Translations under genes and position numbers: made by a program
NCBI RefSeq assembly: GCF_000444995.1
Contig: NC_022041.1
Coordinates: 1,586,001-1,650,000, forward strand
Reading direction: 5' to 3'
Source: Paracoccus aminophilus JCM 7686
Lineage (GTDB): Bacteria > Pseudomonadota > Alphaproteobacteria > Rhodobacterales > Rhodobacteraceae
Length of the DNA stretch: 64,000 nucleotides
Part shown: positions 56,167 to 64,000 of the stretch, piece by piece
Numbering within the stretch: position 1 is the first letter of the stretch
Layout: every line of letters begins with the position of its first letter
Notes under the pieces: generated by a model
Told to the model about the DNA's origin: nothing
Database searches by the model: none
What the model saw: only the letters and a program-made list of their open reading frames with translations

Positions 56167-57297
56167 TTAGCGGAAAAGCACCAAAGACCCTTCGGACCAG
56201 CTGATCCGGGTACGGGTTCCGACATCGGGAACGTCGCGGCCGAAAACGTTGCGCATCGAAATCCGGACCGGGCGGCTGACGCCGTCGAATCGCGCCGAGC
56301 CGTCGAGGCGAACGTCGTAATAGGTCATGTCGCCGTAATAGACGACTTCGTCGATGACGCCGCCGGTCACGCGACCCGTCGCGGGCTGGTTTGCAGCGAG
56401 GAGCGACACCCCTTCCGGGCGAAACCCGATCATCGGGCCCGCATCACCGGGGTTCGAGCGGCTGACATTGCGCTGGGGGATGGTGACGACGCCGAAGCCC
56501 GGCGTTTCGACGCGCACGCCCTCCGCAGTTTCCTCGATGACATGGGCGGGCAGGAAGTTCATCACACCGATGAAATCGGCAACCCGGCGGCTTGCGGGGC
56601 GCGCATAAAGCGCCTCGGGGCCGTCGAGCTGGGCGATCTCGCCCTCGAACATCACCGCAATCCGGTCGGACATGACCAGAGCTTCCTCCTGATCATGGGT
56701 GACCAGAACGAAGGTGATGCCGACCTGACGCTGCAGCTTGATGAGCTCGACCTGCATCTGCTCGCGCATCTTGCGATCCAGCGCCGAAAGCGGCTCGTCG
56801 AGAAGCAGCACCTTGGGCTTGAGGATCAGCGCGCGCGCCAAAGCCACGCGCTGGCGCTGGCCACCCGAGAGCGCATGGGCGGCGCGCTTGCCATAGCCTT
56901 TGAGCCCGACCATCTCGAGCGCCTCTTCGACCGCCTTGGCCTTTTCCGCCGAGGAACGCGGATCGCGGCGCAGACCAAAGCCCACGTTTTCCGCAACCGT
57001 CAGATGCGGGAAAATCGCATAGGATTGAAAGACCATATTGGTCGGACGCCGGTTCGCGGGCACGCCCGCCATATCCTGCCCGTCGATCAGCACCACGCCC
57101 GAGGAAATATCCTCGAACCCGGCAATCGTGCGCAAGAGCGTGGTCTTGCCGCAGCCCGAGGGGCCGAGAAGCGAGAAGAATTCGCCCTCGCGGATGGTCA
57201 GGTCAATGCCGCGCAGCGCGTGATAATCGGCATAATATTTATGCACATCGCGGCATTCGATCATCGGCTTGCGGTCTTGGGTTGTGGTCACGCTCAC
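56167..57297 (-). CDS. ABC transporter ATP-binding protein (PotA-like)
   Basis: 376 aa. Walker A GPSGCGKTTL (about residues 41-50), signature LSGGQRQRV (about 145-153), Walker B VLLLDEPLSALD, and a C-terminal TOBE domain (about 290-370). It belongs to the spermidine/putrescine-type class. Last gene of a three-gene set (permease, permease, ATPase), overlapping the upstream permease by 4 nt. Substrate not determinable; see the missing binding protein. Confidence 0.9.
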   Translation of the reverse strand: MSVTTTQDRKPMIECRDVHKYYADYHALRGIDLTIREGEFFSLLGPSGCGKTTLLRTIAGFEDISSGVVLIDGQDMAGVPANRRPTNMVFQSYAIFPHLTVAENVGFGLRRDPRSSAEKAKAVEEALEMVGLKGYGKRAAHALSGGQRQRVALARALILKPKVLLLDEPLSALDRKMREQMQVELIKLQRQVGITFVLVTHDQEEALVMSDRIAVMFEGEIAQLDGPEALYARPASRRVADFIGVMNFLPAHVIEETAEGVRVETPGFGVVTIPQRNVSRSNPGDAGPMIGFRPEGVSLLAANQPATGRVTGGVIDEVVYYGDMTYYDVRLDGSARFDGVSRPVRISMRNVFGRDVPDVGTRTRISWSEGSLVLFR

Positions 57298-58100
57298 AGG
57301 AAGCCTCCGGAATCTTTGCCGCCGGTCCGGGCAACGCCGCGGCGACGGAAATATTCAGCAATGGTCAGAAGGACGATCGACAGCACGACCAGCACCGTGC
57401 CGAGCGCCATGATCATCGGGATTTGTTTGGGGAAGCGCAGCTGCGAATAGATATAGGTCGGCAGCGTCACCTCTTTGCCCGCAAGGAAGAAGGCGATGAT
57501 GAATTCGTCCAGACTGATGGTGAAGGACATCAGAAGCGAGGAGATCACCCCCGGCATCACCAAGGGCAGGATGACCAGCCGGAAGGCGCTCCATTTCGTT
57601 TCGCCGAGATCATAGGCGGCCTCTTCCAGCGAACGGTCGAGCGAGTTGAACGCGGTCGTCAGGATCACCGTCGCATAGGGAATGCAGATCAGCGTATGGC
57701 CCATGATGACGGTCAGGATCGAGAGTTCGACCCCCACGGACAAGAGCACGACCAGCAGCGACATCGAGACGATGATCTCGGGCAGGACCAGCGGCAGCAT
57801 GATCAGCCCGACGATTGGCCCTTTGCCCGGGAACTCGAACCGGGTCGAGGCGCGCGCGGCAAAGATGCCAAGGCATGTCGCAAAGATCGATGAGCAGACC
57901 GCGATGATCAGCGAATTCGACAGCGCCCGGCGCAAAGTCAGGTTCTCGGCCGCCTGCACGAACCAGTCGGTGGTGAAGCCCTTGAGCGGGAAGGCGATGA
58001 TCGTGCCCGAGTTGAAGGCAAAGATCGGCAAAAGCACGATCGGCGCGTAAAGGAAGATCAGATAAAGGATCGCATAGATCCGAAGGCCGCCACCCTTCAT
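57294..58100 (-). CDS. ABC transporter permease (PotC-like)
   Basis: 268 aa, six membrane helices, EAA-like loop DLGETKWSAFRLVILPLVMPG (about residues 168-188; here cited by its LGETKWSAF core). ATGA overlap on both sides. Confidence 0.9.
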   Translation of the reverse strand: MKGGGLRIYAILYLIFLYAPIVLLPIFAFNSGTIIAFPLKGFTTDWFVQAAENLTLRRALSNSLIIAVCSSIFATCLGIFAARASTRFEFPGKGPIVGLIMLPLVLPEIIVSMSLLVVLLSVGVELSILTVIMGHTLICIPYATVILTTAFNSLDRSLEEAAYDLGETKWSAFRLVILPLVMPGVISSLLMSFTISLDEFIIAFFLAGKEVTLPTYIYSQLRFPKQIPMIMALGTVLVVLSIVLLTIAEYFRRRGVARTGGKDSGGFL

Positions 58101-58966
58101 TGCTTCACCTTGAGAAAACGCCGGTTGAGGAAGAGGAAGATCACGCTCACCACGCCGACGATCAGCATGGCGGTGATCGCCAGCGCCGAGCCGAGCGGGC
58201 GGTTGTCGAGATCAAGCATCTGCGCCTGAATGAGGTTCGCGATCATCGGGATCTTGCCGCCGCCGATCAGGGCGGGCGTGACGTAATCGCCGATGGTCGG
58301 AATGAAGACGATCAGCGAGGCCGCAACCACACCCGGCATCGCCAAGGGCAGCGTCACGCGCCAGAAGGTCATCAGCCGGTTCTCGCCCAGATCGCGCCCG
58401 GCTTCGAGCAGCGAGCGGTCGATCTTTTCCAGCGCGACAAAGATCGGCAAGATCGCAAAAGGCGCATAGGCATGGGCAAGCGTGATCACCATGGAATTGA
58501 CGTTATAGAGGATGAACGTCAGGGGTTCCTCAATGATTCCAAGGCTTTTTAGGCCAGAGTTGATAACGCCATTATAGCCGAGGATCACCTTCCACAGAAA
58601 CACCCGGATCAGATAGCTGGTCCAGAAGGGAATGGTGATCAAAAAGATCCAAAGCGATTTCTTGCTCGGCGAGACCACGAAGGACAGAAAATAGGCGACC
58701 GGAAAGGCCAGAACCACCGTCGTCAGCGTGACCAAAGCGGCAACGATCAGCGAGCGGCTCATGATCTTGTAAAAGATCGGATCGCCCCAGACCGCGATAT
58801 AGTTTTCGAAAGTAAACTCGCGAATGACTACGAGATAGCCGTCCTTGAGGAAGGAATAGGCCAGGATCGTGGCCAGCGGCACTGCGAGAACCAGAATAGA
58901 ATAGATCAGAGGGGGCGAGATGAGGGCCAACCCCTGCCGAGCCTCTGATCGGTGACCTGCCGCCAT
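58097..58966 (-). CDS. ABC transporter permease (PotB-like)
   Basis: 289 aa, six membrane helices, EAA-like loop EAGRDLGENRLMTFWRVTLP (about residues 190-210). The ATG at 58966 (MAAGHRSEARQG) has GAGGGAAAA as SD; the 35-residue upstream extension is rejected. First gene of the importer. No binding-protein gene precedes or follows it in this window. Confidence 0.9.
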   Translation of the reverse strand: MAAGHRSEARQGLALISPPLIYSILVLAVPLATILAYSFLKDGYLVVIREFTFENYIAVWGDPIFYKIMSRSLIVAALVTLTTVVLAFPVAYFLSFVVSPSKKSLWIFLITIPFWTSYLIRVFLWKVILGYNGVINSGLKSLGIIEEPLTFILYNVNSMVITLAHAYAPFAILPIFVALEKIDRSLLEAGRDLGENRLMTFWRVTLPLAMPGVVAASLIVFIPTIGDYVTPALIGGGKIPMIANLIQAQMLDLDNRPLGSALAITAMLIVGVVSVIFLFLNRRFLKVKQ

Positions 58967-59270
58967 TTTTCCCTCGCATGCCGGACCGACGTTCTTTTCC
59001 GGATAATTTTCACAACTTAGCCGGAAGGGAAAGCCTTTTTGGACCGGCAAACGGATCTGTCCGCGCGGCAAGGGCTAGAGCGGGCAGGTAACGACCCTAT
59101 GACGCCCCCGTGACGCCCCGGAAACGACCCTGTGTGACCGGGAGAAGTCGGGAGAAAATACGGGTGGCCATCAAGGAGACGACCACCCGCGCGTGATGAA
59201 AAGAGTCAGTTGCAATAACGCCAGTCTGACACAGAAGCATTAAAGTTTCCTTTCATCCTTTCCCCCTACC
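58967..59270. other. Intergenic region between the PotB-like gene and bhcR
   Basis: 304 bp with no credible gene, in particular no solute-binding protein. It includes a hairpin CGGGTGG (59161-59167) / CCACCCG (59183-59189) with a 15-nt loop, which could be the bhcR terminator or part of the importer promoter, and an AT/pyrimidine-rich stretch (59235-59275) just after the bhcR stop. Confidence 0.6.
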
Positions 59271-60107
59271 CTAAAAATTATCTTCTGCCGGGCCCGAGAG
59301 CGATAGGGCACGCGCCGCCTCGACCACGGCACTGCCAATATCAGAGAGCCGCGCCTCGGTCATGCGATGCGACGGACCCGAAACGGAAATCCCGGCCACG
59401 GGCTCTCCGAACATGTCAAAGATCGGGGCGGCAATGCAGCGCATCCCGGGCGAGCGCTCTTCATTGTCGATCGAATAGCCGCGCGCGCGCGTTTCCGTCA
59501 GATCGGCGACCAGATCGGCCCGCTCTGTCAGCGTCGTCGGCGTGAAGCGATCCAGCACCGCCTCGTGGAAGAAGGTGCGCAAGACCTCGGGGCGCACGAA
59601 AGCCAGCAGCGCCTTGCCAATTCCCGAGGAATGGAGGGGCGAGCGCGTGCCCGGCGGAAAGAAGGCGCGGATCGTCTCATGGGTTTCAACCTGACCGATA
59701 AACAGAACCGCATTACCGTTGCGGATCCCAAGGTTGGCGGTTTCACCGGTCAGCTCCATCAGGCGGCGCATCACGGGACGCGAACGCTCGATCAACCCCG
59801 AGCGACGCATGAAGGCCGAGCCATAGCGAAACGCCGTCGGGCCAAGATGCCAGGCCTGCGTGAGCGGATCGCTTTCGACCACGGCGCGGGCATCAAGCGT
59901 CGTCAGGACGCGGTGCACGGTCGAGGGTGCAAGCCCCATGCGCTGCGCGATCTCGCTGAGCGTCATGCCCTGTTCGCTGGCCAAGATGTCCATGAGGTCC
60001 AGCGCCCGGTCCAGCGCGCGCACCCCACCCTTGTCTTCGGCCTGCGAATTTCCCGAGCCACGCGGCCTGCCCCTTTTGCGGGGTTGATTCTCTTTTCCAT
60101 GAATCAT
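59271..60107 (-). CDS. bhcR: IclR-family regulator BhcR
   Basis: 278 aa. Basic N-terminal tail (QPRKRGRPRGSGN), IclR winged HTH (about residues 28-90: LASEQGMTLSEIAQRMGL, APSTVHRVLTTLD), and a C-terminal effector domain (about 105-270). It is divergent from bhcA with 170 bp between start codons, the arrangement of the Paracoccus denitrificans bhc cluster, where BhcR binds this region and glyoxylate weakens binding (established there). Ends in TAG. Confidence 0.92.
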   Translation of the reverse strand: MIHGKENQPRKRGRPRGSGNSQAEDKGGVRALDRALDLMDILASEQGMTLSEIAQRMGLAPSTVHRVLTTLDARAVVESDPLTQAWHLGPTAFRYGSAFMRRSGLIERSRPVMRRLMELTGETANLGIRNGNAVLFIGQVETHETIRAFFPPGTRSPLHSSGIGKALLAFVRPEVLRTFFHEAVLDRFTPTTLTERADLVADLTETRARGYSIDNEERSPGMRCIAAPIFDMFGEPVAGISVSGPSHRMTEARLSDIGSAVVEAARALSLSGPAEDNF

Positions 60108-60277
60108 TGAGGATCATTATGCCTTTCGTTGAAAATCATATTTGCGATCTGGAAAAGCCCAAGATTTTGATTTCTCAAGCTTATATCATATTTTTCCGTC
60201 ATTGCGAAATATTTTTCAGAAAAATTGCAACATTCCCAGACCGCTCGTAACGTGGAATGAAGAGGAAAGGATATGCC
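60108..60277. promoter_or_regulatory. bhcR-bhcA promoter/operator region
   Basis: 170 bp that are strikingly AT-rich against the rest of the window. It contains the 15-bp perfect palindrome ATTTTTC-A-GAAAAAT (60211-60225). A direct repeat ATATTTTTC at 60188-60196 and 60209-60217 is offset by 21 bp (two helical turns), and TTGC (60202-60205) and GCAA (60227-60230) flank the palindrome. A GAAAAT half-site lies near 60131. These are the best candidates for BhcR binding. The bhcA SD is AGGAAAGG (60262-60269). Confidence 0.6.
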
Positions 60278-61468
60278 ATGATCAGCCAGAACCCCGTCTT
60301 CATTCCCGGCCCGACCAATATGCCCGAGGCCCTTCGCCGGGCGGTGGATATTCCGACCATCGACCACCGTTCAGCGGAATTCGGTCGCATCCTTCACCCC
60401 GCACTTGAGGGCGTGAAGAAGGTTCTCAAGACGAAAGACGCGCAGGTCTTCGTGTTTCCCTCGACCGGCACCGGTGGCTGGGAAACCGCGATCTCGAACA
60501 CGCTTTCGGCCGGCGACAAGGTGCTGGCGGCGCGCAACGGCATGTTCAGCCATCGCTGGATCGACATGTGCCAACGCCACAATCTCGATGTCACCATCGT
60601 CGAGACGCCCTGGGGCGAAGGCATCCCGGCCGACCGCTTCGAGGAGATCCTGAGCGCCGACAAGGGTCACGAGATCCGCGTCGTTCTGGCCACGCATAAC
60701 GAGACCGCGACCGGGGTCAAATCCGACATCGCCGCGGTCCGCCGTGCGCTGGATGCGGCGGGCCATCCGGCGCTTCTGTTCGTTGACGGCGTCAGCTCGA
60801 TCGGCTCGATGGATTTCCGCATGGATGAATGGGGCGTCGATATTGCCGTCACCGGCAGCCAGAAGGGCTTCATGCTGCCGCCGGGTCTGGCGATCACCGC
60901 CTTCTCGCCGAAAGCAATGGCAGCGGTCGAAAGCGCCCGCCTGCCCCGCACCTTCTTCGACATCCGCGACATGGCCTCGGGCTATGCCCGCAACGGCTAT
61001 CCCTATACCCCGCCGGTCGGGCTCATCAACGGGCTGAACGAAAGCTGCAAGCTGCTGCTCGCCGAGGGCATCGACAATGTCTTCGCCCGCCACCGCCGCA
61101 TTGCCGAAGGCGTGCGCAAGGCGGTCCACGCCTGGGGGATGGAGCTTTGCGCCGCGCGCCCCGAGCTTTACTCGGACAGCGTCAGCGCGATCAAATTCCC
61201 AGCGGGCTTTGACGGCAACCGCTTCGTCAGCCATGCGATGGACCAATATCAGGTCGCCTTCGGCACCGGGCTGGGCGAGGTTGCGGGCAAGGTCTTCCGC
61301 ATCGGCCATCTCGGCAGCCTGACCGATGCCATGGCGCTGCTCGCGATCTCGGTCGCCGAGATGTGTCTGGCCGATATGGACCTGCCGGTCCAGCTGGGTT
61401 CCGGGGTTGCGGCGGCGCAGGAGCATTACCGCCAGACCGCAGGCGCTGCCCTGAGAAAGGCCGCGTGA
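60278..61468 (+). CDS. bhcA: Aspartate-glyoxylate aminotransferase BhcA
   Basis: 396 aa, PLP fold-type I, class V (serine-glyoxylate/alanine-glyoxylate aminotransferase type). Transfers the amino group of aspartate to glyoxylate, giving glycine and oxaloacetate. PLP lysine K196 in GSQKGFMLPPG; N-terminus NPVFIPGPTNMPEALRRA and FVDGVSSIGSMDFRMDEW are typical. Called BhcA rather than plain SgaA because the B, C and D genes follow in order. ATG at 60278 chosen from the SD. Confidence 0.94.
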   Translation: MISQNPVFIPGPTNMPEALRRAVDIPTIDHRSAEFGRILHPALEGVKKVLKTKDAQVFVFPSTGTGGWETAISNTLSAGDKVLAARNGMFSHRWIDMCQRHNLDVTIVETPWGEGIPADRFEEILSADKGHEIRVVLATHNETATGVKSDIAAVRRALDAAGHPALLFVDGVSSIGSMDFRMDEWGVDIAVTGSQKGFMLPPGLAITAFSPKAMAAVESARLPRTFFDIRDMASGYARNGYPYTPPVGLINGLNESCKLLLAEGIDNVFARHRRIAEGVRKAVHAWGMELCAARPELYSDSVSAIKFPAGFDGNRFVSHAMDQYQVAFGTGLGEVAGKVFRIGHLGSLTDAMALLAISVAEMCLADMDLPVQLGSGVAAAQEHYRQTAGAALRKAA

Positions 61469-62433
61469 TGAAGGACGCGGCGCCCTTTTATATCCCGACC
61501 CTGGGCGACATGTTTGCCGCCCGGGACCGGATCGCCCCCTATGTCCACCGCACGCCGGTGATGACCTCGCGGATGCTCAATGAGCTGACCGGGGCCGAGC
61601 TCTTCTTCAAATGCGAGAACCTGCAAAAGGCGGGCGCCTTCAAGGCACGGGGCGCGTCGAATGCGGTCTTTTTGCTGACCGAGGAGCAGGCGGCGCGCGG
61701 GGTCGCGACCCATTCGAGCGGCAACCACGGCAGCTGTCTGTCCTATGCTGCGGGCCGTCGGGGCATTCCCTGCACCGTGGTCATGCCGCGCACCGCGCCG
61801 CAGGCCAAGAAGGATGCCGTGCGCGGCTATGGCGCGCGGATCGTGGAATGCGAGCCTTCGACCTCCAGCCGCGAGGCGGTCTTTGCCGAAGTCGTGGCCG
61901 AGACCGGGGCCGAGTTCGTGCATCCCTATAATGACTGGCGCGTGATCGCTGGTCAGGCGACTTGCTCGGCCGAGCTGATCGAGCAGGTCGAAGGCCTTGA
62001 TGCGGTGGTTGCGCCGATCGGCGGCGGCGGCATGATTTCGGGGACTTGTCTGACGCTCTCGAACCTCTCGCCGAAAACCCGGATCTATGCCGCCGAGCCG
62101 CTGAATGCCGACGATGCGGCGCGCAGTTTCCGCGCCGGTCGCATCATCGCCGATGACGCGCCCAACACCGTCGCCGACGGGCTGAAAGTGCCGCTGAAGG
62201 AGCTGACCTGGCACTTCGTCCGCAACCATGTGACCGACATCCTCACCGCCACCGAAGACGAAATCGTCGAGGCGATGAAGCTGATCTGGAAGCGCATGAA
62301 GATCGTGATGGAGCCCTCGAGCGCCGTGCCGCTCGCGACCATCATCAAGAACCGTGATCTCTTCGCCGGCAAACGCGTCGGCCTCATCATCACCGGCGGC
62401 AACGTCGATCTCGACCGCCTGCCGTGGAACTAA
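61468..62433 (+). CDS. bhcB: beta-Hydroxyaspartate dehydratase BhcB
   Basis: 321 aa, PLP fold-type II, serine/threonine dehydratase/racemase-like. PLP lysine K59 in KAGAFKARGA; PLP phosphate loop GGGGMISG; SSGNHGSCLSYAAG. Removes water from beta-hydroxyaspartate to give iminosuccinate. The TGATG overlap with bhcA shows coupling. In isolation it would be called threonine dehydratase or serine racemase; context sets the call. Confidence 0.93.
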   Translation: MKDAAPFYIPTLGDMFAARDRIAPYVHRTPVMTSRMLNELTGAELFFKCENLQKAGAFKARGASNAVFLLTEEQAARGVATHSSGNHGSCLSYAAGRRGIPCTVVMPRTAPQAKKDAVRGYGARIVECEPSTSSREAVFAEVVAETGAEFVHPYNDWRVIAGQATCSAELIEQVEGLDAVVAPIGGGGMISGTCLTLSNLSPKTRIYAAEPLNADDAARSFRAGRIIADDAPNTVADGLKVPLKELTWHFVRNHVTDILTATEDEIVEAMKLIWKRMKIVMEPSSAVPLATIIKNRDLFAGKRVGLIITGGNVDLDRLPWN

Positions 62434-62443
62434 GGGGAACATC

Positions 62444-63607
62444 ATGAACGCCAAAACGGATTTTGCGGGTTACGAGGTCGGTTTCGACATCCCCGCCCTG
62501 CCCGGCATGGACGAGAAGGACATCCAGACGCCCTGCCTGATCCTTGATCTCGACGCGCTCGAGCGCAACGTCAAGAAAATGGGCGATTACGCCAAGGCCC
62601 ATGGGATGCGCCACCGCAGCCACGGCAAGATGCACAAATCGGTCGATGTTCAGAGACTTCAGGAACATCTCGGCGGGGCCGCTGGGGTTTGCTGCCAAAA
62701 GGTGTCAGAGGCCGAGGTCTTTGCTCGCGGCGGGATCAAGGACATTCTGGTCACGAACGAGGTCCGCGATCTGGCCAAGATCGACCGGCTGGCGCGGATG
62801 CCGAAACTGGGATCCACGGTGACGGTTTGCGTCGATGATGTGAAAAACATCGCCGATCTCTCTGCCGCGGCGCAGAAATACGGCACCGAGCTTGGCATTT
62901 TCGTCGAGATTGATTGCGGCGCGGGGCGTTGCGGCGTCAAGACCGCCGAGGCTGTCGTTGAAATCGCTCAGGCGGCAGCCGCCGCCCCGAACCTGACCTT
63001 CAAGGGCATTCAGGCCTATCAGGGCGCAATGCAGCATATGGATTCCTTTGAGGATCGCAAAGCCAAGCTCGACGCCGCGATTGCGCAGGTGAAAGAAGCG
63101 GTCGAGGCGCTGGATAAAGTCGGGCTGAAGCCGGAATTTGTCTCGGGCGGCGGCACGGGGTCTTATTACTTCGAAAGCAATTCGGGCGTCTTCAACGAGC
63201 TTCAATGCGGCTCTTACGCCTTTATGGATGCCGATTACGGCCGCATTCACGACGCGCAGGGCCAGCGTATCGACCATGGCGAATGGGAGAATGCGCTGTT
63301 TATTCTGACCTCGGTGATGAGCCATGCAAAACCCCATCTTGCGGTGGTCGATGCGGGTCTCAAAGCGCAATCGGTCGACAGCGGCCTGCCGGTCATCTAT
63401 GGTCGTGAAGATGTCAAATATATCAAATGCTCGGACGAACATGGCGTCATTGACGATCCGAATGGCGTTCTGGCGATCAATGAAAAGCTGAAACTCGTTC
63501 CCGGCCATTGCGATCCGACCTGCAACGTCCATGATTGGTATGTCGGGGTTCGAAACGGCAAGGTGGAATCGGTTTGGCCGGTTTCAGCACGCGGAAAGGC
63601 CTATTGA
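62444..63607 (+). CDS. bhcC: beta-Hydroxyaspartate aldolase BhcC
   Basis: 387 aa, PLP fold-type III of the D-threonine aldolase group. PLP lysine K62 in RSHGKMHKS; C-terminal DSD1 metal domain with HGVIDD and GHCDPTCNVHD (metal ligands His and Cys). Joins glycine with a second glyoxylate to form beta-hydroxyaspartate. AAGGGGAA precedes the ATG, 10 nt after bhcB. Overlaps bhcD by one base (TGATG). Confidence 0.94.
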   Translation: MNAKTDFAGYEVGFDIPALPGMDEKDIQTPCLILDLDALERNVKKMGDYAKAHGMRHRSHGKMHKSVDVQRLQEHLGGAAGVCCQKVSEAEVFARGGIKDILVTNEVRDLAKIDRLARMPKLGSTVTVCVDDVKNIADLSAAAQKYGTELGIFVEIDCGAGRCGVKTAEAVVEIAQAAAAAPNLTFKGIQAYQGAMQHMDSFEDRKAKLDAAIAQVKEAVEALDKVGLKPEFVSGGGTGSYYFESNSGVFNELQCGSYAFMDADYGRIHDAQGQRIDHGEWENALFILTSVMSHAKPHLAVVDAGLKAQSVDSGLPVIYGREDVKYIKCSDEHGVIDDPNGVLAINEKLKLVPGHCDPTCNVHDWYVGVRNGKVESVWPVSARGKAY

Positions 63608-64000
63608 TGTATATTGTCGCAGAGAAAGAAATCGCGGGCCTGATGACTCCGGCCGCAGCCTTTGAGGCGATCGAGGCGGTTTTCGCCGCAATGGCCGCGC
63701 GCAAGGCCTATAACTTTCCGGTGGTGCGCGAAGCCATTGGCTATGAGGATGCGCTTTACGGCTTTAAAGGTGGGTTTGACGGGGCGGCCCTGACGCTTGG
63801 GCTGAAAGCGGGCGGCTATTGGCCCAATAACCAGAAGCACAATCTCATCAACCACCAATCGACGATCTTTCTCTTTGACGCCGATACCGGGCGCGCCAAA
63901 GCCGCAATCGGGGGCAATCTGCTGACCGCTTTGCGCACGGCGGCGGCCTCGGCGGTCTCGATCAAATATCTCGCGCCGAAAGGTGCGAAGGTTCTGGGCA
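63607..64000 (+). CDS. bhcD: Iminosuccinate reductase BhcD (partial, cut by window end)
   Basis: First 131 codons only. Ornithine cyclodeaminase/mu-crystallin family; the Rossmann half lies beyond the window. Visible features: MYIVAEKEIAGLMTP, KGGFDGAALTLGLKAGGYWP, TALRTAAASAVSIKYLAPKG. Reduces iminosuccinate to aspartate with NAD(P)H, regenerating the amino donor of BhcA and closing the cycle. Confidence 0.92.
   Translation, partial: MYIVAEKEIAGLMTPAAAFEAIEAVFAAMAARKAYNFPVVREAIGYEDALYGFKGGFDGAALTLGLKAGGYWPNNQKHNLINHQSTIFLFDADTGRAKAAIGGNLLTALRTAAASAVSIKYLAPKGAKVLG

Follow-up and report, generated by a model that had tools for sequence, protein, structure and literature searches.

The 64,000-nucleotide window analysed here (contig C1:1586001-1650000 of the host genome G000, Paracoccus aminophilus JCM 7686) ends in a gene cluster that, to judge from its protein sequences, is almost certainly a canonical and complete operon of the beta-hydroxyaspartate cycle (BHAC) with a divergent regulator. 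Past the window's edge, in the host-genome stretch L004, the same strand runs on into genes of purine catabolism. The joint reading favoured here, a canonical BHAC operon for which purine-derived glyoxylate is an input beside glycolate, is probably correct. It builds on the identity and order of the genes, the ligand pocket of the regulator BhcR, an operator-like block and the physical linkage to purine genes, all of which are directly visible.

The cluster consists of bhcR on the minus strand (59271-60107; an IclR-family regulator, NCBIfam NF045644, 402.9 bits against a cut-off of 350, Pfam HTH_IclR and IclR_C) and, on the plus strand, bhcA (60278-61468; L-aspartate--glyoxylate aminotransferase, NF045640, 744.7 against 650, Aminotran_5), bhcB (61468-62433; beta-hydroxyaspartate dehydratase of the “type A” discussed below, NF045641, 598.4 against 550, PALP), bhcC (62444-63607; 3-hydroxy-D-aspartate aldolase, NF045642, 756.7 against 690, Ala_racemase_N and D-ser_dehydrat) and bhcD (63607-64000; iminosuccinate reductase, truncated at the window's edge, NF045643, 555.1 against 500 for the complete protein, OCD_Mu_crystall). 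All five proteins thus exceed the cut-offs of BHAC equivalog models in profile searches and reach the cut-off of no other model listed (for BhcB, 25 of 41 models are listed); because all five bit scores exceed equivalog cut-offs, a chance match is excluded. A first-pass annotation, made from the letters of the window, had assigned the cluster to BHAC, and the assignment is supported by every sequence test made. Alignment to the P. denitrificans proteins, which it had proposed as a check, gave 326 of 385 aligned residues identical for BhcA, 242/321 for BhcB, 342/387 for BhcC (solved enzyme, PDB 6qkb) and 273/320 for BhcD (PDB 6rqa), the P. denitrificans enzymes being the closest to BhcC and BhcD among solved structures. 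Non-BHAC paralogues did not emerge as best matches, and the Pfam match of BhcD agrees with the mu-crystallin-type reductase expected in its place. By BhcC, the nearest named relatives are Paracoccus cavernae, P. sulfuroxidans and P. halophilus.

Some details of the layout have shifted. The order bhcR(-)/bhcA-bhcB-bhcC-bhcD(+) is borne out by coordinates and models, and bhcD is completed past position 64000 as a protein of 320 amino acids (C1:1649607-1650569, equivalent to L004:6608-7570). One-base overlaps, at first described throughout, occur at the A/B and C/D junctions; B and C are separated by a 10-base gap. BhcA, BhcB and BhcC presumably represent pyridoxal phosphate (PLP) fold types I, II and III, and the PLP lysines K59 (BhcB) and K62 (BhcC) are as originally given, while K196 of BhcA is valid solely from the second ATG, at 60278 (from the ATG at 60257 it would be K203). 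The later start is aligned in 18/18 Paracoccus promoter regions compared, and the residue it encodes is where the NCBIfam BhcA model starts.

By analogy with P. denitrificans, BhcA would convert glyoxylate to glycine with aspartate as the amino donor, releasing oxaloacetate; BhcC would join the glycine to a second glyoxylate, giving beta-hydroxyaspartate; BhcB would dehydrate this to iminosuccinate; and BhcD would reduce the iminosuccinate to aspartate. Overall, two glyoxylate would thereby yield one oxaloacetate with no carbon lost. BhcR, with its conserved glyoxylate pocket, would switch the operon on, acting as an activator as in that species. Alignment with E. coli IclR places nine ligand positions in BhcR (T143, A146, S154 and M220, with G160, I161, D212, S239 and S241), and all nine residues are the same as in the P. 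denitrificans set (Table 1 of PMC11323563). That paper describes BhcR as an activator required for growth on glyoxylate in P. denitrificans, and notes a possible palindrome 5' of the bhcA -35 region. In the window, the near-palindrome GAAATATTTTTC (60206-60217, plus strand) occupies a conserved intergenic position and is a possible BhcR operator; it is the sole match in the window at no more than one mismatch (0.10 expected). It begins a 22-mer block, GAAATATTTTTCAGAAAAATTG (60206-60227, between bhcR and bhcA), found once in L004 at up to three mismatches (0 expected) and in 18 Paracoccus intergenic regions, in eight of them exactly, in five with one mismatch and in five with two to four; CAGAAAAATTG is present in all 18.

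Downstream, bhcD is followed on the same strand by an NCS2/xanthine permease gene (ncs2, L004:7630-9111; TIGR03173, 504.7 against 414), an 8-oxoguanine deaminase gene (L004:9125-10468; NF006055, 689.1 against 532) and the hydroxyisourate hydrolase gene uraH (L004:10493-10846; TIGR02962, 131.3 against 87), with gaps of 59, 13 and 24 bases. A consensus scan found no plus-strand terminator-like site in the 59-base gap between bhcD and ncs2, and bhcD is probably co-transcribed with the three genes. Beyond uraH lie a LysR-like gene on the opposite strand and then xdhA (both named from reading), xdhB (TIGR02965, 1292.8), xdhC (by Pfam) and a guanine-deaminase-like amidohydrolase gene (Pfam Amidohydro_1, the finer name from reading). 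Elsewhere in the host genome, profile searches place the urate oxidase PuuD at C1:3576727, a puuE-uraD fusion with an OHCU decarboxylase domain at C1:1274667, the (S)-ureidoglycine aminohydrolase AllE beside that fusion (it also passes an allantoicase-bifunctional model, 465.5 against 350) and the ureidoglycolate lyase AllA at C1:3185070. With xdhB and uraH, genes for the route from urate to glyoxylate are present, the allantoinase domain of the fusion being matched as Pfam Polysacc_deac_1 only (TIGR03212 scored on its relative in L138). Given the same-strand run into purine genes, the operon may drain glyoxylate from purine and urate breakdown as well as from glycolate.

A similar arrangement is found in P. 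denitrificans HAMBI_2443 (NZ_CP141053.1, L135), where bhcR and bhcABCD are followed by ncs2, 8-oxoguanine deaminase, uraH and puuD (the record is unannotated there, and the names come from comparison). The two species share the bhc gene order, the BhcR pocket residues and the downstream order ncs2-8-oxoguanine deaminase-uraH. They differ in that puuD adjoins uraH in P. denitrificans and is remote in the host, in that the xdh genes of the host island had no match in the 29-kb P. denitrificans stretch, and in the type of BhcB. The E. coli-type Gcl/glycerate pathway also uses glyoxylate, and the effector domain of its regulator AllR (PDB 1tf1) resembles BhcR, of which it is the best-scoring solved relative. 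Unlike organisms with that pathway, the host has no glyoxylate carboligase (Gcl) over cut-off in its genome (TIGR01504, best 353 against 711 bits). Two net routes for glyoxylate assimilation are named in the available text of PMC11323563, so BHAC is the only one of them recognised here, malate synthase not having been searched for; the glycerate pathway, according to the same text, releases CO2 in assimilating glyoxylate.

Are the purine genes functional partners, or chance neighbours? The strongest alternative accepts BHAC and treats the neighbours as incidental: glycolate would be the sole relevant glyoxylate source, and the linkage would reflect inherited synteny or a general clustering of catabolic genes. 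This is unlikely, though it carries real weight, and the published physiology, as far as the available portion of PMC11323563 goes, is glycolate-based. The question was approached with an even draw of 120 Rhodobacteraceae genomes (119 genera), 47 of which carry a BhcB over cut-off, at 49 places. A marker gene was counted as near if within 10 kb of bhcB, and compared with random placement, an expectation that treats each genome as a single circle and the genera as independent (both approximations); fragmented assemblies lower the observed count. uraH, picked as marker after the P. denitrificans region had been read, so that the idea came from Paracoccus, was near bhcB in 19 of the 47 genomes (0.30 expected; 18 of 46 without the host), xdhB in four (0.26 expected) and the xanthine permease (TIGR03173) in at least 13 (0.19 expected). 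The permease figure is a lower bound because the genome search missed the host's own bhc-adjacent NCS2 gene, which hmmscan recognised in two stretches. Because the genera are related, the 19 cases are not independent and Poisson values would overstate the linkage.

Glycolate oxidase was tried as a genomic partner by the same measure and rejected: the best glcD match (E <= 1e-115, one per genome) never lay within 10 kb of bhcB (0 of 47 genomes; 0.26 expected, and so at chance level), the nearest lying 20.9 kb away in G029. No genome of the 47 reached the GlcD model's cut-off of 568 bits, which therefore looks too strict for this group. The difference between uraH (19/47) and glcD (0/47), together with the linkage and the presence of the pathway genes, makes purine-derived glyoxylate a likely native input.

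A second set comprised the best 80 of 590 confirmed loci encoding a BhcC relative; 69 have all of bhcA-D, with flanks of up to 10 kb. Purine-catabolic genes stand in the flanks of 47 of these 69 (two or more in 43), and glcD is near two. Mere inheritance of one ancestral order would not readily account for the 18 different nearest-neighbour arrangements among the 43 loci with at least two purine genes (the safer count; an alternative figure of 30 distinct orders counts any string difference, including contig ends and missed genes), nor for their spread over 20 of 35 genus groups, loci without a genus name being pooled. By family, linkage at this level is seen in Paracoccaceae (30/40) and Roseobacteraceae (7/9), and also in Rhizobiaceae (2/5), Methylobacteriaceae (1/2), Ahrensiaceae (1/1), Aurantimonadaceae (1/1) and one unplaced locus (1/1). 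On the side of incidental neighbours, no linked loci were sampled in Hyphomicrobiaceae (0/1), Phreatobacteraceae (0/1), Phyllobacteriaceae (0/3), Moraxellaceae (0/2), Oceanospirillaceae (0/1) or Rhodobacterales without a family (0/2). Loci from the same query that lack bhcA provide a comparison: a purine gene occurs at none of the ten, and with removal of L020 and L038, in which bhcB comes first and a contig end may have cut off bhcA, the contrast is 47/69 against 0/8 (Fisher p 0.0003). L063, which has bhcRABC and no bhcD in its 11-kb stretch, was counted in neither group, and L014 has a 42% aminotransferase match in the place of bhcA. With an earlier panel that left out the uricolytic genes, 34 of the 80 named loci had purine neighbours, contig-end and bhcA-less ones included. 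Among 20 stretches chosen for a nearby uraH or xdhB, 16 hold puuD, uraH, puuE-uraD and allA, 12 of them with allE as well; in those 16, the genes leading from urate to glyoxylate and those of the glyoxylate-assimilating cycle are neighbours.

Several observations weigh against the reading of the cluster as a BHAC operon fed in part by purines. A terminator-like site lies just inside ncs2 (L004:7668-7691; 13 such sites against 8.2 expected in the stretch), and this, with the inclusion of the purine input itself, lowers confidence in the joint reading. The consensus scan of L004 flagged no promoter at bhcA. In the host, allA, puuD, allE and puuE-uraD are all far from bhc. Of the 69 full clusters, 22 lack purine neighbours, all three from Gammaproteobacteria among them. 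A GlcD-like protein is encoded at C1:2441000, far from bhc (440 bits, below the cut-off of 568), followed by glcE- and glcF-like frames named from reading, and with a glcDEF-like set present glycolate is also a likely source. Finally, the window BhcB is 75% identical to that of P. denitrificans, with changes at positions 54 and 55, near the PLP lysine.

The BHAC pathway itself is already known, reportedly described in detail in a 2019 Nature paper, and the window cluster adds one member. More useful is the linkage: BHAC is treated as a glycolate pathway, but in the genomes tested bhc adjoins genes of urate breakdown far more often than it does the best glycolate oxidase candidate, and it adjoins them in P. 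denitrificans too. From this linkage one would expect purine glyoxylate to have a carbon-conserving route, as an alternative to the CO2-losing glycerate pathway of E. coli. No report of the linkage was found in the open literature searched, and a prior mention in the 2019 paper or its supplements is possible. The available portions of PMC8307300, PMC12214560 and PMC10499878 do not report it, and a word search of the available text of PMC11323563 finds purines named as a glyoxylate source in the introduction and “purine” otherwise only in the reference list.

Another unusual feature is the presence of two types of BhcB in otherwise similar operons. Forced two-group clustering of 81 sequences gave 44 of type A, including the window's, and 37 of type B, with mean differences of 24% between types, 18% within A and 12% within B; the ranges overlap, type A being loose (differences of up to 29% within it, against a smallest A-B difference of 16%). 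Nine positions tell the two types apart, each type being at least 90% uniform there; 240 is one of them, as are 54 and 55, beside PLP Lys59. P. denitrificans matches the type B residues at all nine (R27, R32, E54, P55, M96, T117, R120, L240, R278), whereas H, M, K, A, G, A, G, K and K stand there in the window BhcB, none of them a type B residue. In a tree set of 22 hand-picked loci (17 Paracoccus, five others), with types defined beforehand from BhcB alone, the eight type A rows are scattered over the joined BhcA+C+D tree, where their grouping as one clade is rejected (p-AU 5.6e-7), whereas a 100/100 branch divides them from all other rows in the BhcB tree. P. kondratievae and P. versutus are 97% identical in BhcA, 93% in BhcC and 91% in BhcD, but 79% in BhcB. 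The plain reading of these sequences is that bhcB has repeatedly been exchanged within the operon, for which mobile bhcBCD sets could be the vehicle. Alternatively, two old paralogues may have been sorted by differential loss; two BhcB genes occur together in 2 of the 47 genomes (G048 and G083).

It is conceivable, though improbable, that type A differs from type B in substrate preference or stereochemistry, giving a cycle of altered specificity or with another product. The separating positions beside Lys59 and at 240 fit such a difference, as does the mixing of types across the BhcA+C+D tree; the same occurrence of both types in otherwise alike operons argues for interchangeability, and the single equivalog model for BhcB accepts the window protein. 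A broader proposal, tentative and rather more doubtful than not, is that BHAC in Rhodobacteraceae and relatives is primarily the carbon-salvaging end of purine and urate degradation, combining one glyoxylate-sensing regulator and one island and carrying purine carbon to oxaloacetate with a last step free of CO2 loss; free glycolate would be a second use, and bhcB would pass from lineage to lineage as an exchangeable cassette, perhaps carried by mobile bhcBCD modules.

The weakest alternative, that related non-BHAC enzymes (serine-glyoxylate aminotransferase, threonine dehydratase, D-threonine aldolase, ornithine cyclodeaminase) are merely co-located, can appeal to wider family matches to those four, but with all five proteins above the BHAC cut-offs and below the others listed, and BhcC and BhcD so close to solved P. 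denitrificans enzymes, it is very hard to credit. The first-pass annotation had also expected each enzyme, taken singly, to be misannotated, and this now holds in part: 29 of 40 plasmid rows listed are named as BhcB, two bear a generic PLP-enzyme name and nine have no feature, while two records without the NZ_ prefix label bhcC “alanine racemase” and “DSD1 family PLP-dependent enzyme”.

The bhcA-less modules on plasmids differ from the host operon in having no purine genes annotated nearby and mobilisation genes close at hand. On a mobilizable P. pantotrophus plasmid (NZ_CP058692.1, L136:9001-12088), bhcBCD occurs without bhcA or bhcR (BhcB 87% and BhcC 83% identical), preceded by genes for an N-formylglutamate amidohydrolase, a glutamine synthetase family protein and aldehyde and alcohol dehydrogenases; a recombinase gene stands beside the module and transposases lie within 10 kb. 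The 32-kb conjugative Phaeobacter plasmid pP75_g (L137:6759-11164) carries bhcBC without A or D, after genes for RidA and an FAD-dependent oxidoreductase and with a transporter. The same set (names from reading) occurs on an 11-kb contig labelled Spirulina (L023:880-4856), and the RidA-FAD oxidoreductase-bhcBC combination appears to be a distinct module for using 3-hydroxyaspartate. Two Ancylobacter loci (L016, L017) have bhcBCD without A and R.

Other genes recur around the bhc loci or lie near the window cluster. A GAPDH-family paralogue is found at 17 of the 69 named full clusters and in 12 of the 20 chosen stretches, adjoining bhcD at L138:7110-8093 (325.7 bits, below the GAPDH-I cut-off of 367.2) and L150:6927-7922. 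Beyond guaD in L086 (1-3467), hydantoinase A/B-like and isochorismatase-family amidase-like genes, named from reading, possibly serve N-methylhydantoin/N-carbamoylsarcosine breakdown. Directly beyond bhcR in the window is a three-gene ABC transporter (56167-59071, minus strand; an ATPase with a TOBE domain and two permeases), with no substrate-binding protein seen adjoining; it was weighed as a possible component and set aside, being kept at 2 of the 80 named loci (60% identity or more).

The host also has a second BhcC-family gene (C1:1748597-1749757; L005:8598-9761), scoring 740 bits against 690, with 290 of 387 residues identical to bhcC and without bhcA, bhcB or bhcD. No match above 79% was found among 100 other genomes of the genus searched. 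Its neighbours are, on one side, a dpp-type peptide ABC transporter (named from reading) and an MlrC-like protein below cut-off and, on the other, LysR-like, MFS-like, DUF5943/V4R and M19 dipeptidase genes; the protein may split 3-hydroxyaspartate freed from peptides.

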